Positions 4,469-23,640 of a DNA stretch of 49,366 bases are shown here, in pieces. This DNA is from Microcoleus sp. GA_180221_E-2-1-MAG-45_12 (GTDB lineage Bacteria; Cyanobacteriota; Cyanobacteriia; Cyanobacteriales; JAAUUE01), in contig JAIMKT010000010.1 in NCBI GenBank assembly GCA_020692245.1, positions 11,329 through 60,694 on the forward strand, in the 5' to 3' direction. The notes under the pieces were generated by a model. The model saw nothing but the letters and a program-made list of their open reading frames with translations, had not been told where the DNA came from and searched no databases. Numbering within the stretch: position 1 is the first letter of the stretch; every line of letters begins with the position of its first letter. Both the position numbers and the translations under genes were made by a program.

Positions 4469-5062
4469 TTAGTGAAGGTACAACCAACTAAACAAATCTG
4501 CCGCCGACAATTGCCAATCCTGCATCACCTCCAGTGCTGGTAATTGATCATCTTGACTTTTTATCTCTGGCATTTGATTTTCTTGAAAAACCATCACTCT
4601 TTTGCGCTCTGGATCAATCAACCAACCTAATTTAGTGCCATTTTCAAAGGCAAAAATTATTTTCTCCATCACCTTATTAATGCTCTGCTCTGGCGACAAG
4701 ATTTCAATTATCCAATCTGGAGAAATATTAACTTTATTCGCAACACTTCCATCCTCATTTCTAGGAATCCGTTCCCACACAAATATACTAATATCGGGGA
4801 CGATCGATCGAGTCTCAAAAGTACACCGTAATTCAGTACGGGCATAGGCTATTTTCTTGGGTTTAGCAACCTGATTTATTTTTACTACTAATTCTGTCTG
4901 TAGTGTACTATGTTCCCCATTTGGCATAGGTTTTTGGTGAATTTTCCCATCAATATATTCGCTAGCTGGTTTTGTTTCCGGTAGCTGCAAAAACTCCTCT
5001 AAGGTTATCTCTAGCTCTGGGGATTGGTTAGATTGATTAGCTTTAGAAATAGTAGAAACCAT
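4469..5062 (-). CDS. Uma2 family (DUF820) predicted endonuclease
   Basis: 197-aa protein with the Uma2 restriction-endonuclease-like fold. Visible motifs are the N-terminal TLEEFLQLPETKPASEYIDG, the VPDISI strand and PDWIIEILSPEQS, which supplies the acidic residues of a PD-(D/E)XK-type centre, followed by the typical FAFENGTKLGWLIDPERKRV. Uma2 genes are highly expanded in cyanobacteria and their role is unknown. It is convergent with ycf46 and lies downstream of the caspase operon, separated by about 180 nt, so co-transcription is possible but not shown. Confidence 0.85.
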   Translation of the reverse strand: MVSTISKANQSNQSPELEITLEEFLQLPETKPASEYIDGKIHQKPMPNGEHSTLQTELVVKINQVAKPKKIAYARTELRCTFETRSIVPDISIFVWERIPRNEDGSVANKVNISPDWIIEILSPEQSINKVMEKIIFAFENGTKLGWLIDPERKRVMVFQENQMPEIKSQDDQLPALEVMQDWQLSAADLFSWLYLH

Positions 5063-5245: not shown

Positions 5246-6721
5246 CTACAATTCTTGATGCGAGAAAAACAAGCAACCACACACCTTCTCCCACTCCCCA
5301 AACCATAACCCAACCCCCAATTTTGGGAGGTGTCCCTCTTTTGATATAAATTTCTTCTCAAAAAATGGGTTGGGGTAATCCACCCCCTCTCCATTATTTT
5401 TCCATGCAGTACGATCGCAAAACTTCTTCCAAGTCTCATCACTGGGATAACTAAAATCTAGCTTACCACCACATTCAACATAAATTTTCTTCTGGACACT
5501 AAAACCATAAAGTCCATTGCTATGCTTTACCCAGAGGCGATCGATCTCCAATAGTTCATTGCAGGGGAACTCTTTTAAGTCTTTCTCGCTAAACCATTGC
5601 CCCTCGTCCTTACCCACCGCCGTAATCATCAGGCGATAGGTTTCTTGATCTGCTTCCTGCCATTTCTCATTTTTGAGATATCTCTCCAGCTTTTGGTAGC
5701 GGGGGTTCGTAGTTGGTTTAGGGGCTTCCTTAGGGGGCTTTGGCTGTTCTATCGGCGATTTTGTCGGTGCTTTATCACCCCGATTACTAGGGCTTGTGGT
5801 TGGTCTAGGTTGCGTTTCTTTATTTGCCAATCGTTGAAAAGCTTTAATCGCCTTAAAATCTGTACCACCAGCCGCCACATTTACCCGCAGCCATAACTGC
5901 AAAGCTAAGTCATAATTCCCTTCATTTTCAGTCTCAAGAGCATTTTCTCTGAGCAAAGCAATATCCGTGAGATTAGCAAACTTCGGCAGCAAAATGTAAT
6001 GCAGTTTTGTTTCCGGCTCAATGACCACATAGGGAGTTTGGGCATAGCTTTTATATCTTTGCGTTAATTGCGGTACGCGAGCCTTCAAATAATTGGCAAA
6101 ACGCTCCACCGTCGCACAATTCCCCTCGCCTTGAATCCGCAGCGCCTCCAGCAACACATGGGTGAAAGCCCCCTGCTGCTTCTCATCAATCTCATAGGAA
6201 ACCTGATTAGGACTGCAAGAAAAGAAAGTAATTACCCCCTGCTGCTTCTCTAATCCAATCCCCAACCCAGCACTTTTTACCCCATCACCACGACAGGCAT
6301 CGATCAACATCACCACATTATCCGCCCCACTCCGTCGCAACCGTTCCGTCACAGAACTAATCGGAATCGCCAGATCGGGAATAGAACGCGGATTTCCATC
6401 ACTAGGCAACAGATAATCGCGCCCCTCCCAGGGCATCCCATGACCGCTAAAGTAAAACCACAGCGTATCCCCTGCGGATAAAAAGGGATCGGCAAAGCGA
6501 TCGCCTAAAAAAGACCAGAGCGTTCCGTAGGTCGGCTGAGTCCTGCGCCCCTGAGCATTGCGTGGCGAATCATCGGTAAAAAAGTACAGATCACTCGTGT
6601 TAACACCCAAATCCTGCATGAAAAAATCACGCATCCTCTCAGCATCGCTTTTGGCATACTTCAGAGGCGAAATTTCATCGTAATCATTAATTCCAACGAT
6701 AACAGCACAATTTCTTGCCAT
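5246..6721 (-). CDS. Caspase-family (C14) protease fused to a GUN4 domain
   Basis: 491-aa two-domain protein. Residues 1-240 are a caspase/metacaspase-like domain beginning ARNCAVIVGINDY, with the catalytic His94 in FYFSGHG and Cys143 in LIDACRGDG, so both residues of the dyad are kept. A helical region (about 245-300) and a Pro/Lys-rich linker (about 305-340) follow. The rest, about 345-491, is a GUN4 domain (YQKLERYLKNEKWQEAD, LLEIDRLWV, GLYGFSVQ). Stand-alone GUN4 binds porphyrins and activates Mg-chelatase; as a fused domain it may act as a ligand sensor, which is inference. It is the last gene of a leftward operon, 4 nt after the Pepco-like gene. Related caspase and GUN4 fusions occur in predicted bacterial conflict systems. 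Confidence 0.88.
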   Translation of the reverse strand: MARNCAVIVGINDYDEISPLKYAKSDAERMRDFFMQDLGVNTSDLYFFTDDSPRNAQGRRTQPTYGTLWSFLGDRFADPFLSAGDTLWFYFSGHGMPWEGRDYLLPSDGNPRSIPDLAIPISSVTERLRRSGADNVVMLIDACRGDGVKSAGLGIGLEKQQGVITFFSCSPNQVSYEIDEKQQGAFTHVLLEALRIQGEGNCATVERFANYLKARVPQLTQRYKSYAQTPYVVIEPETKLHYILLPKFANLTDIALLRENALETENEGNYDLALQLWLRVNVAAGGTDFKAIKAFQRLANKETQPRPTTSPSNRGDKAPTKSPIEQPKPPKEAPKPTTNPRYQKLERYLKNEKWQEADQETYRLMITAVGKDEGQWFSEKDLKEFPCNELLEIDRLWVKHSNGLYGFSVQKKIYVECGGKLDFSYPSDETWKKFCDRTAWKNNGEGVDYPNPFFEKKFISKEGHLPKLGVGLWFGEWEKVCGCLFFSHQEL

Positions 6722-6725
6722 AGAC

Positions 6726-7199
6726 TTAAACTGACTCCGAAGGTTGAGAAATATTGGGCAAATCTACCCGTTTAAATTTTAGTTCGATCGCCCCTTTTCC
6801 AGAAGTTTCGATCCCTGTACCCAATAGTTTAATTTCGCCCTTGCCCGAAATCTCCACTGCCAACTTAATCTCATCCAATTGCAACCCTGAATCTGGAGCC
6901 GTTTGTCTCTGAGCATCCGCAAAAATATGACTAATCACCCGCATAAATTGTGACATTTGGACTGCTAGAGTTTCTGCCTTGATGCGACTTGTTTGGACTT
7001 CTTCCCCTGAAACTGTGGTTTTGCTTGGTGTGCTGTAAGGATTAGTATCTTTTGTTGCGGTTTTTTGACCTGTAGGGGTTTGCAGCGAACTTGGTTCACC
7101 TGCCGTCACAATCCACAATTCCTCATCGCCCCACGTTTGCTCTTCCATAATTTTGCCTTGAGAATGAATATTTCTAGCAATCATCCATGATTTTCTCAT
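6726..7199 (-). CDS. Pepco/trypco-like small protein, partner of the caspase
   Basis: Up to 157 aa. The first Met gives a basic N-terminus; the Met at residue 19 (7145, MEEQTWGDE) gives a more natural acidic start and a 139-aa protein, so the start is uncertain. Residues 40-80 are Thr/Ser-rich and look disordered, about 85-110 is helical, and the C-terminus is a beta-rich unit (LDEIKLAVEISGKGEIKLLG...GAIELKFKR). That tail resembles the small peptidase-companion (Pepco/trypco) domains described beside caspases and trypsins in predicted conflict systems; this is from memory and unverified. The 4-nt gap to the caspase-GUN4 gene supports a joint function, perhaps as a substrate, tether or regulator. 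A degraded copy of its 3' end lies at 7791-7852. Confidence 0.6.
   Translation of the reverse strand: MRKSWMIARNIHSQGKIMEEQTWGDEELWIVTAGEPSSLQTPTGQKTATKDTNPYSTPSKTTVSGEEVQTSRIKAETLAVQMSQFMRVISHIFADAQRQTAPDSGLQLDEIKLAVEISGKGEIKLLGTGIETSGKGAIELKFKRVDLPNISQPSESV
6771..6832. repeat. Repeat copy A1 (3' end of the Pepco-like gene)
   Basis: This 62-bp stretch inside the 3' part of the Pepco-like gene recurs at 7791-7852 with only about five mismatches. It marks an ancient segmental duplication within the operon. Confidence 0.85.
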
Positions 7200-7220
7200 G
7201 CTTTATAAGCATTTCAGTAA

Positions 7221-7308
7221 GCAATCGCCGGACAAATCTTTTTCGGGACTAGAGCTAGGTTTTTTATCTGGTTCTTGAGTCATAGGGTTTGAGGGTCGAT
7301 CGCCTGTT
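7221..7308. repeat. Repeat copy B1 in the spacer upstream of the Pepco-like gene
   Basis: About 88 bp holding CGGGACTAGAGCTAG and TTCTTGAGTCATAGGG, repeated nearly unchanged at 7856-7940. On the minus strand it contains a possible 26-codon reading frame (7283-7203, starting MTQEPDKKPSSS) without a clear ribosome binding site. The second copy does not keep that frame, so I do not call it a gene. Confidence 0.85.
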
Positions 7309-7583
7309 CAAGGATCAATACTTTCCAACTCATCAGCAATAAGCTCTTGTAACTCATCATCACAATGGGACTGTAGATGAATTATAGAAGTATTTAGCTC
7401 TGCTAGGAGATCAGCCTTTTGGCGATCACTAAGACTTGGCAATTGAAGCTGATGTAAAAGCATTAAGACTCTTTGACATTCAACCCCTAATTCGGCAATC
7501 AAAGTACCAAGGGTTGGACTAGCGATCGATGCTGGTCTATAGTTAACGACCAGACCGTTTATAGGTAAATCTGTAGCTTGCAT
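7308..7583 (-). CDS. Small helical protein of the caspase operon
   Basis: 91 aa, family not recognised. A short N-terminal segment (MQATDLPINGLVV) is followed by long amphipathic helices with many Leu, Gln and Glu, and an acidic end (IADELESIDP). There is no signal peptide or membrane segment, so it is cytosolic. It starts 2 nt after the stop of the 61-aa gene, which makes co-transcription near certain, and lies 108 nt before the Pepco-like gene. The composition suggests a helical adaptor, by inference only. Confidence 0.65.
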   Translation of the reverse strand: MQATDLPINGLVVNYRPASIASPTLGTLIAELGVECQRVLMLLHQLQLPSLSDRQKADLLAELNTSIIHLQSHCDDELQELIADELESIDP

Positions 7584-7585
7584 AT

Positions 7586-7771
7586 TTATCTCCTTAATCT
7601 TTTTTGAGCTTTCTCAATACCAACTTCAAAGGCGCGAATCTCTTTCTGCCAATGGCGAATTAGTCCTAAATCGGGATAGTCTTTCAGTAGCTCCGTATCA
7701 ACTTTTCGCTGATGCTCAATAATTCGCTGTTGAAGAGAGTTAATTGATTTTTCATGATTTTTCTTTCCCAT
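7586..7771 (-). CDS. Small coiled-coil protein, first gene of the caspase operon
   Basis: 61 aa, very basic, almost entirely helical with heptad-like spacing (SINSLQQRIIEHQRKVDTELL and RHWQKEIRAFEVGIEKAQKRL). The central YPDLGLIRHWQKEI looks like a conserved turn that I associate with small cyanobacterial proteins near conflict-system genes; this is unverified. It leads the operon of four genes on the minus strand. It may self-associate or act as a scaffold. Confidence 0.6.
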   Translation of the reverse strand: MGKKNHEKSINSLQQRIIEHQRKVDTELLKDYPDLGLIRHWQKEIRAFEVGIEKAQKRLRR

Positions 7772-7790
7772 TATTTAGATCAATCAACCC

Positions 7791-7852
7791 TTTTAAATTT
7801 TAGTTCGATCGCCCCCTTTCCAGAGGTTTCAATCCCTATACCCAGTAGTTTA
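7791..7852 (-). pseudogene. Decayed copy of the Pepco-like 3' end (repeat A2)
   Basis: About 62 bp nearly identical to 6771-6832, here standing outside any gene. The rest of the Pepco-like gene is missing, so this is a remnant of a duplicated or recombined copy. It is followed by repeat B2. Confidence 0.7.
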
Positions 7853-7855
7853 GGA

Positions 7856-7940
7856 GATCGTCGCACAAATCTTTTTTCGGGACTAGAGCTAGTTTTTTAT
7901 CTGGTTCTTGAGTCATAGGGTTTGAGGGGCGATCGCCTAT
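7856..7940. repeat. Repeat copy B2
   Basis: Second copy of the roughly 85-bp sequence at 7221-7308. It lies between the Pepco remnant and the Uma2 gene ending at 7954. A2 then B2 in the same order as A1 then B1 (with the intervening gene body lost) suggests duplication of the locus followed by deletion. Confidence 0.85.
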
Positions 7941-7953
7941 CCAATAGATCTTA

Positions 7954-8529
7954 TTACCAAATTTCCTCAAGGCTCAAAACGAACTCAGGTAAAACATCTT
8001 CCCCAGATAAAGAACTCGGATTTTGCAAAACTTCTTTGGGCTTACCAATCCGATATACTTCCACTTCTCGATCGTGGCGATTAATCAGCCAACCCAGCCT
8101 TGCACCATTATCCTGATATTCCTGCATCTTCCCTTGGGTAATCTTCAAGCTATCACTAGGCGACATTAATTCAACTACAAAATCTGGACAAATTGGTGCA
8201 AACTTAGCCTGTTGTTCTGGAGTTAACGCTTCCCAACGCTCTTTCAGTATCCATGAAGCATCAGGCGATCGATCACTACCATTGGGAAGTTTAAAACCTG
8301 TGGATGAGCCAAACGTAAAGCCTAACTTCGTTCTACGATTCCAAATTGATAAATCGGCGGTAATGCTAGCACTACGCATTCCTGTACCGCCATCTTCTGG
8401 AGCCATAATTGTAATATTTCCTTGAGCATTGCGCTCGAATCTCAGGTCACTATTTTGGCGACAAATTTGAAAGAACTGTTCATCCGTCAGATCAATTACA
8501 GACTCTAAGCTGATCGTTAAAGCATTCAT
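7954..8529 (-). CDS. Uma2 family (DUF820) predicted endonuclease, second copy
   Basis: 191 aa, Uma2 fold, clearly diverged from the copy at 4469-5062. Motifs include LTDEQFFQICRQNSDLRFERNAQGNITIMAP at the N-terminus (shown here only as the family start), RSPDASWI, and CPDFVVELMSPSDS with the acidic residues of the nuclease-like centre, followed by KMQEYQDNGARLGWLINR. It lies upstream of the caspase operon on the same strand, separated from its first gene by the 180-nt repeat region. Function is unknown. Confidence 0.85.
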   Translation of the reverse strand: MNALTISLESVIDLTDEQFFQICRQNSDLRFERNAQGNITIMAPEDGGTGMRSASITADLSIWNRRTKLGFTFGSSTGFKLPNGSDRSPDASWILKERWEALTPEQQAKFAPICPDFVVELMSPSDSLKITQGKMQEYQDNGARLGWLINRHDREVEVYRIGKPKEVLQNPSSLSGEDVLPEFVLSLEEIW

Positions 8530-21867: not shown

Positions 21868-23166
21868 ATGACTGAACGGCTAATTGTTAAAAATTTTGTA
21901 GGCATCAAGGATTTAGAAATTGAGGTCAAAAAAATAAACGTCCTCATCGGACCTCAAGCAAGTGGTAAAAGTATCTGTGCCAAACTCCTCTTCTACTTTA
22001 AAAACTTTCCTTGGGAAATTTTATCAGCTGTAGAAAATGAAGAAACAAAACGAAATTTTGATTCTAACTGCTCCAAAAGATTCATAAAATGGTTTCCACC
22101 AATCTCATGGGGGAATGAAAGCTTTTTTATAAGATATGAAATAAATGATGTTTTTATAGAAGTAAAAAGAATAACCACCAATAAAAGTAGGATTTCAATT
22201 GACTATGCGGACTCTTATAAGAAAGAGTTTCTATTATTGCATAAGATGAAAAAGAGAACTAAAGAAGAGGCAGAAAAATATAAAGATATTAGACATGAAC
22301 AATTAAATTACTATTTAATCAGAGAACACCTATCTAATTATTTAACCTCTTCTCTTTGTAATGAAGCTTCTTTCATTCAGCTTTTTGTCCCAGCTGGGCG
22401 GGCATTTTTAGCCAATCTTCAAAATAATATATTTTCTTTTTTACATAGCAATAATGATTTAGACCCTTTCCTAGAGGCATTTGGCTCTGAATATGAAAGC
22501 CTTAAGGGTTTAGTAGGAATAGAAATAGTTAATATGCAAGCCAGTGAGAAAGAAAAATATCTTGAGAAGAAGTATTTACAAGATTCAAGAATTTCATTAA
22601 TAGTAGAGGAAATATTATGTGGTAAGCATATTAACCTGAAAGGAAAAGATTATATAGAAAATGCTGATCATCGTCTTGTTAGCCTAGTTAATGCATCCTC
22701 TGGACAGCAGGAAACATTACCTCTTTTGATAATACTTGCAAAATTACCAATTGTAGTGGAGTTTTTTCTTGGAAGAACTGTATATATTGAGGAGCCAGAA
22801 GCACATTTATTTCCTCAAGCTCAAAAGAGTATTATTGATTTGATCGCAACAGTTTTTAATTATCATGAAGATAAACTACAGTTTTTTATAACTACCCATA
22901 GCCCTTATACCTTAACTTCTTTTAATAACTTACTTCAGGCAGGGATGCTTTATAAGGAATTAGATACAGAGCATTTAGAAGAATTAGAGAAGATAGTACC
23001 AAGGTATAAAGCCTTATCTACTGATGATTTCTCAGCTTATGCTTTAGCTGATGGAAAATGTACTAGCATCATTGATCCAGAGACAGGTTTGATTGATGCG
23101 ACCATCATTGATACTGTGTCTGAAGACTTAGCGTTCGAGTTTGATAATCTCCTCAATCTTGTTTAA
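21868..23166 (+). CDS. AAA/ABC-type ATPase of the OLD/AAA_15 class
   Basis: 432-aa SMC-like ATPase. The start TERLIVKNFVGIKDLEIEV is the typical first strand of RecF/OLD-type proteins. Walker A is GPQASGKS at 28-35, an ABC-like signature SSGQQE at about 277, Walker B VYIEEPEAHLFP at about 305, and the H-loop TTHSP at about 341. The intervening region is helical. There is no Toprim domain at the end, unlike OLD nucleases, so a partner would have to supply the effector. The next gene starts 6 nt later. The DNA is strikingly AT-rich and Lys/Asn/Ile-heavy compared with ilvB and recN at its sides, a sign of horizontal transfer. Comparable ATPases serve as sensors in PARIS- and Septu-like phage defence; this is analogy. 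Confidence 0.82.
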   Translation: MTERLIVKNFVGIKDLEIEVKKINVLIGPQASGKSICAKLLFYFKNFPWEILSAVENEETKRNFDSNCSKRFIKWFPPISWGNESFFIRYEINDVFIEVKRITTNKSRISIDYADSYKKEFLLLHKMKKRTKEEAEKYKDIRHEQLNYYLIREHLSNYLTSSLCNEASFIQLFVPAGRAFLANLQNNIFSFLHSNNDLDPFLEAFGSEYESLKGLVGIEIVNMQASEKEKYLEKKYLQDSRISLIVEEILCGKHINLKGKDYIENADHRLVSLVNASSGQQETLPLLIILAKLPIVVEFFLGRTVYIEEPEAHLFPQAQKSIIDLIATVFNYHEDKLQFFITTHSPYTLTSFNNLLQAGMLYKELDTEHLEELEKIVPRYKALSTDDFSAYALADGKCTSIIDPETGLIDATIIDTVSEDLAFEFDNLLNLV

Positions 23167-23172
23167 TCATCT

Positions 23173-23640
23173 ATGAGAGAAATTCCCCCTGAATGTAAAG
23201 AGGATAATTCAAACCCTAAAATACCTCTAGAAGAATATAAAAGTAAAATAACTTTTCTAAATCCAGATAAAATAACAGTTATAAAAATTAAAATTGATGG
23301 TTGTGTAATTAAAAAGAATGATCCGCTTTTACGTTGTGATTATATGATGATTATTCTTGGGAAGAATACAAAAACAAAGGATAATGTAGAAATATATGTA
23401 GAGTTAAAGGGATGTGATATTAATCACGCAGTCAAACAAATAGAATCAACTATTAAAGATTTGTCAGAAAATCCTAATAAGTTAAAGAAAGTATGTTTTG
23501 TTGTTGCTACTAGTAGCATTTCTCCTAGTCTACGTTCAAATATGCAAAACCAGAAAAGCAGATTTAAGAAAAACTTTAGTGCTACTCTTCACATCGATAA
23601 AACTCCACACGAATATAATCTCAAAGATTTGTGTAGTTAA
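23173..23640 (+). CDS. Small PD-(D/E)XK-like protein paired with the ATPase
   Basis: 155 aa, AT-rich like its neighbour and 6 nt behind it. The core reads CDYMMIIL (Asp56) followed about 20 residues later by EIYVELKG (Glu77, Lys79) and then HAVKQIE (Gln89). The spacing D-x20-E-x-K-x9-Q fits the restriction-endonuclease-like active site, with Gln in the following helix as in resolvase-type members. The N-terminus (residues 1-35) is charged and may contact the ATPase. I infer a nuclease effector controlled by the ATPase. I do not recognise a named family, and sequence similarity alone does not prove catalysis. Confidence 0.62.
   Translation: MREIPPECKEDNSNPKIPLEEYKSKITFLNPDKITVIKIKIDGCVIKKNDPLLRCDYMMIILGKNTKTKDNVEIYVELKGCDINHAVKQIESTIKDLSENPNKLKKVCFVVATSSISPSLRSNMQNQKSRFKKNFSATLHIDKTPHEYNLKDLCS

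Follow-up and report, generated by a model that had tools for sequence, protein, structure and literature searches.

In the draft genome of Microcoleus sp. GA_180221_E-2-1-MAG-45_12, a 49,366-nt stretch of contig JAIMKT010000010.1 (positions 11,329 to 60,694; hereafter the window) carries a caspase fused to a GUN4 domain and, directly in front of it, a small gene of the Pepco family. Our analysis indicates that these two genes probably constitute a Pepco-orthocaspase module whose recognition domain is interchangeable and which functions as an effector in biological conflict or cell death. The module looks like a bacterial cell-death/immunity effector rather than a chlorophyll-precursor sensor. 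A first-pass annotation of the locus had described a four-gene operon in which two small helical proteins, here called A and B, preceded the Pepco-like and caspase-GUN4 proteins. All four open reading frames exist on the minus strand (Table 1), but they fall into two tight pairs, A-B (2 nt apart) and Pepco-caspase (4 nt apart), and the 159-nt spacer that sets the pairs apart contains the decayed leader of another gene, so that a single operon is doubtful. The four genes are two units, with Pepco and the caspase as the core and A-B separate. The window genome, its only congener and the relatives compared here are all draft genomes, in which absences and contig-end effects are possible.

The Pepco-like identity proposed in the first-pass annotation was borne out by a Pfam match to PF24393 (E 4e-26; 92.1 bits against a curated cut-off of 27). 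The longest open reading frame spans positions 7199-6726, and, judged by homologs, the gene starts with the ATG at position 7148 (MEEQTWGDEELWIVTA). Pepco was found in 34 of 292 sampled cyanobacterial genomes, and at loci selected by Pepco the next gene was a caspase of one clade in 34 of 38 cases, mostly less than 50 nt away or overlapping. Loci selected by the caspase gave the same picture, with Pepco present in 18 of 20. In further Pepco loci from named genomes the caspase was adjacent in 68 of 80, several of the exceptions being contig ends or decayed genes, and Pepco stood in front of 105 of the 111 caspases in a pooled set that was itself partly chosen by Pepco. Genes further upstream, beyond Pepco, differed between loci. 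Together, these data show that Pepco and this caspase clade form a conserved unit. A literature search turned up no paper that defines Pepco. The window genome holds a second Pepco-caspase pair, cut by a contig end (L089; G000:C67, 7525-8097; L, G and C numbers are our handles for loci, genomes and contigs), with a possible counterpart on G300:C448 (L101).

The caspase-GUN4 protein matched Peptidase_C14 above the gathering cut-off (Pfam E 5e-23). The His94/Cys143 dyad, which had been noted as intact, was indeed invariant in 50 of 50 Pepco partner caspases. In the AlphaFold2 (AF2) model, which had a predicted local distance difference test (pLDDT) score of 80.6 that fell below 50 at residues 467-480, residues 1-248 matched metacaspase, MALT1 and caspase structures with Z scores of 20-23. 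With the p20 domain, the His-Cys dyad and the caspase fold all present, the protein is, as judged from sequence and model, an orthocaspase of the Peptidase C14 family and is predicted to be proteolytic. The label PD-T4-6 given to the caspase by PADLOC was rejected because the match arises solely through the GUN4 portion of a single kinase-GUN4 profile.

The C-terminal end of the caspase varied widely. Among 50 Pepco partner caspases, the C-terminal domain was an FGE-sulfatase (FGS) domain in 26 and GUN4 in 19, and DnaJ_C, nSTAND, RDD and HTH occurred once each; one locus (L132) carried two GUN4 domains. A tree of the caspase domains of 111 caspases required at least 18 changes between FGS and GUN4. 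Closely related caspases could end differently: those of L187 and L064 were 92% identical, yet the former carried FGS and the latter GUN4, and a caspase 80% identical to that of the window carried DnaJ_C in the same slot (L135:5428-7125). Given that bNACHT25 is reported to require host DnaJ for phage detection (PMC12169576), the use of DnaJ-like domains as bait could be a recurrent theme. Sequence also changed quickly within the slot. For pairs with a caspase identity of 0.85-0.97, median identity was 0.78-0.79 for Pepco and 0.71-0.79 for FGS modules, and 0.38-0.52 for GUN4 modules. Likewise, in comparisons of the window with four Pseudanabaena loci (L132, L133, L134 and L137), the caspase was 87-90% identical, the GUN4 core 33-56% and the tail 18-48%; as a control, true GUN4 was 91% identical between the two congeners. 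The caspase C-terminal domain has thus been swapped often, and its GUN4 version diverges faster than either the caspase or Pepco. We considered the GUN4 tail as a target of a diversity-generating retroelement and rejected this: the GUN4 3' end had only short matches at chance level (E 0.1 or worse) as candidate template repeats in the draft genome, and no reverse transcriptase motif occurred in the window or near related loci, although no genome-wide search for reverse transcriptases was made. A GUN4-only paralog was about 69% identical at the nucleotide level between the congener (L212; G300:C239) and the window genome (L214; G000:C44), with flanks 94% identical; the A-B cassette followed it in the congener only.

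The entire effector has also been exchanged. In the congener (G300), the same site holds a 779-aa NACHT-GUN4 gene instead of Pepco and caspase-GUN4 (L331:4440-6779, G300:C381), enclosed by the same Uma2 genes and with the same DEAD helicase lying downstream. Its N-terminus, MTQEPEPKDIDKSTNSSPEK, resembles an orphan leader that precedes Pepco in the window (MTQEPDKKPSSSPEKD) and a further copy of that leader at 7857-7938. The latter belongs to a decayed second copy in which 71 bp are 90% identical to 6761-6831, in the Pepco gene, and 83 bp are 94% identical to the orphan leader. Earlier recombination here has left scars in the form of the two leader copies, one of which adjoins a decayed Pepco 3' end, and recombination may well have caused the effector exchange. 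The window genome encodes two further NACHT-GUN4 proteins and one kinase-GUN4 protein, so the GUN4 end is common to NACHT, kinase and caspase effectors; Pfam found no NACHT domain in the window caspase-GUN4 protein itself. Because the window and Pseudanabaena share the arrangement and a Uma2 gene, and because their caspases are 87-90% identical at a true GUN4 identity of only 49-51%, these comparisons indicate probable horizontal transfer between the two lineages.

A and B matched no Pfam family above its cut-off. Nevertheless, they are genuine genes, since homologs occur in many genomes (A in 43 of 196, B in 43 of 292 cyanobacterial genomes) and since substitutions relative to Pseudanabaena are dominated by third codon positions (5/2/16 at positions 1/2/3 in A and 16/10/33 in B). 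They normally form an adjacent pair beside unrelated genes, including those for aconitase B, a nonribosomal peptide synthetase, valyl-tRNA synthetase, an aminotransferase and ThiC. At one locus (L292:5035-6932, G286), A forms the C-terminal end of a STAND-TPR protein and B follows in overlap, which hints that A-B may also serve NTPase systems. A-B is an independent, widespread cassette that has probably moved into this locus, and the Pepco-caspase module would not require it.

Fusions of GUN4 to effectors have so far been taken to sense the tetrapyrroles of photosynthesis, and the first-pass annotation suggested such a ligand here. On this account, which also appears in PMC7159879, GUN4 would bind a porphyrin or bilin and set the activity of the caspase, and photosynthetic damage would thereby be coupled to programmed cell death. 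The domain is certainly GUN4-like (Pfam E 2e-32; 112.9 bits against a cut-off of 29.2; sequence matches to GUN4 entries in the PDB), it retains the GUN4 fold and the central motif (LWVKHSNGLYGFSVQ), and GUN4 effector fusions are cyanobacterial. Bilin binding, however, is tied to an LxNxLR motif that orthologs keep and paralogs lose, with loss of bilin binding proposed for the latter (PMC10156173), and a conserved Arg and Phe are important for porphyrin binding (PMC8967248). The true GUN4 of the window genome keeps the motif (GHLPLSNQLRG, with LSNQLR), whereas the caspase GUN4 has GHLPKLGVGLWFG at the same place; LxNxLR was present in none of 27 caspase-GUN4 proteins, and the Arg important for porphyrin binding is lost in the window. 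Since the motif is absent here and kept in the genome's true GUN4, a bilin or porphyrin sensor is unlikely on sequence grounds, and the pocket may take another ligand instead. Moreover, the domain is exchanged for the unrelated FGS and diverges within otherwise near-identical proteins, neither of which a fixed small-molecule sensor would need. We therefore consider a sensor of tetrapyrrole status quite improbable.

A further alternative, rather unlikely but the strongest of the rivals, is that the GUN4 or FGS end docks substrates or partners for a housekeeping protease involved in differentiation, ageing or stress proteolysis, so that its variation would reflect changing partners and not immunity. 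Orthocaspases have been discussed in homeostasis and stress (PMC7517822), and the neighbours of the module are mostly housekeeping genes. Accessory conflict genes nevertheless fit better than housekeeping ones because of the patchy distribution (34 of 292 genomes), the apparent transfer between orders, the NACHT replacement at the same site and the frequent domain swaps. It is very improbable, and mostly refuted, that A and B are dedicated subunits of a four-component Pepco-caspase machine, as the first-pass annotation implied in treating them as partners. The window does contain all four genes, and one Pseudanabaena locus (L133) has the order Pepco-A-B-caspase-GUN4 with gaps of 2-20 nt. However, A-B is combined with Pepco-caspase only in the window and in four Pseudanabaena-type loci (L132-L134 and L137), and in three of those four it has decayed: A and B are fused by deletion in L132 and L134, and B is truncated in L137, while Pepco and the caspase stay open. 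No A or B homolog occurred in the other roughly 60 Pepco-caspase loci checked, which, with the unrelated neighbours of A-B elsewhere, led us to reject A-B as module subunits. Conservation with the caspase thus largely failed for the two small genes and held for Pepco.

Several observations weigh against reading the module as a conflict or cell-death effector. Among the matches listed, no consistent defence island was seen around it, the neighbours being mostly housekeeping genes with scattered PADLOC matches only, which is a weak sign in either direction, and neither a MoxR/vWA-type nor a STAND-type NTPase partner lies next to it in the window. The putative role of Pepco as a regulator or adaptor is read from gene order, and its AF2 model, of modest quality (pLDDT 73), matched no solved or viral fold. 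Its similarity to Trypco1 is weak (hhalign E 0.0027, probability 11%); weak Pfam matches to Trypco1 occurred in 20 of 50 cases, with a best E of 4e-4, so that homology is suggestive only. Finally, relaxed constraint could be a partial cause of the fast divergence of GUN4.

If the module is indeed a conflict or cell-death effector, its task would be protection against invaders or severe stress. In this scheme the GUN4 module would recognize a variable macromolecular cue, probably derived from an invader or from a guarded host component, and recognition, perhaps via clustering, would lift inhibition of the caspase; the active protease would then cleave cell proteins, and the cell would be killed or arrested. 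Pepco, analogous to Trypco1 and possibly distantly related to it, may serve as a regulator or adaptor, either keeping the protease in check or bringing substrate to it. A ligand- or antigen-triggered protease appears to be the likely logic, in keeping with the triggered protease that was first proposed, with tetrapyrrole dropped as the ligand. More broadly, we find it quite possible, though short of probable, that in cyanobacteria the GUN4 paralogs have given up tetrapyrrole binding and serve as a hypervariable domain for immune recognition, a C-terminal cassette traded among caspase, NACHT and kinase effectors and interchangeable with lectin-type FGS. Motif loss, domain swapping and, at one site, the replacement of Pepco-caspase by NACHT on a GUN4 end all point towards recognition as the role of this module within a cell-death or immune system. 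Variable recognition domains in bacteria would then come in two kinds, GUN4 joining the C-type lectin fold, and the long-open question of which cue cyanobacterial caspases respond to becomes directly testable by domain swaps.

Parts of this arrangement have known counterparts. The domain fusion itself is that of cyanobacterial orthocaspase-GUN4 proteins (PMC2853523, PMC8283722), GUN4 having been found on 29 of 473 orthocaspases (PMC8283722); in the parts of these two surveys available to us, the Pepco partner, the swapping of FGS and GUN4, the loss of the tetrapyrrole motif and the NACHT exchange are not reported. True GUN4, a Mg-chelatase cofactor, shares the fold and core motif with the window domain, which differs in lacking LxNxLR, in being fused to a caspase and in being hypervariable. 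In predicted conflict systems, caspases figure as effectors and FGS as a sensor (PMC7159879, PMC10907252), and FGS domains are proposed antigen sensors (PMC10907252). These C-type lectin domains, some of them diversified by retroelements (PMC7517822, PMC10907252), occupy the same C-terminal position on the same caspases as a proposed variable sensor, but the window has GUN4 instead of a lectin fold, and neither a template repeat for its GUN4 end in the draft genome nor a reverse transcriptase motif near related loci was found. Bacterial NACHT proteins, which are NLR-related, are antiphage (PMC12169576); the likeness lies in the NACHT protein with a GUN4 end at the congener's site, while the window gene lacks NACHT and the function of NACHT-GUN4 is putative. 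In the Trypco1-trypsin pairs of VMAP/MoxR-vWA systems (Kaur et al. 2020, PMC7159879), a small companion gene likewise lies directly upstream of a peptidase, and Trypco1 preceded trypsin-like genes in the genomes examined here too. In the window, however, the peptidase is a caspase and Pepco is a Pfam family of its own. MoxR, vWA and VMAP were not among the scanned window neighbours, and a lipase-type hydrolase lies 20 kb away, not next to the caspase.

Table 1. Features of the Pepco-caspase locus and its flanks (window coordinates).
Feature	Position	Strand	Description
A	7771-7586	-	61 aa; probable coiled-coil protein of A-B cassette
B	7583-7308	-	91-aa small protein of A-B cassette
Pepco companion gene	6726..7148	-	140 aa from ATG at 7148; PF24393 match, homology-based start, caspase adjacency
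Caspase-GUN4	5246..6721	-	491 aa, putative effector with C-terminal module; Peptidase_C14 and GUN4 above Pfam cut-off, AF2 model
Caspase (Peptidase_C14) domain	6020..6712	-	Residues 4-234; Pfam, dyad kept in 50/50
His94 codon	6440-6442	-	Within caspase domain
Cys143 codon	6293-6295	-	Within caspase domain
GUN4-type domain without LxNxLR	5318..5710	-	Residues 338-468; Pfam and PDB GUN4 matches
Divergent C-terminal tail of GUN4 module	5249..5335	-	Residues 463-491; ortholog identity 18-48%, pLDDT <50 at 467-480
Orphan leader (MTQEPDKKPSSSPEKD...)	7224..7305	-	Apparent remnant of NACHT-GUN4 gene start
Decayed second copy	7782..7938	-	Pepco 3' end 7782-7852 and leader 7857-7938; middle missing
Uma2 gene, flanking site marker	4469..5062	-	Pfam; congener has same flank
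Uma2 gene, flanking site marker	7954..8529	-	Pfam; in Pseudanabaena also upstream of Pepco

The scanned neighbours in the window included an AAA (AAA_lid_3) ATPase, the DEAD helicase, MerR, DUF305, a BPD transporter and Uma2. Elsewhere in the window, at 21868-23640, an AAA_15/AAA_21 ATPase whose best PADLOC match is AriA (95.8 bits) is followed by a 155-aa protein with a PDC-M29B match, and the two are a candidate two-gene defence pair.

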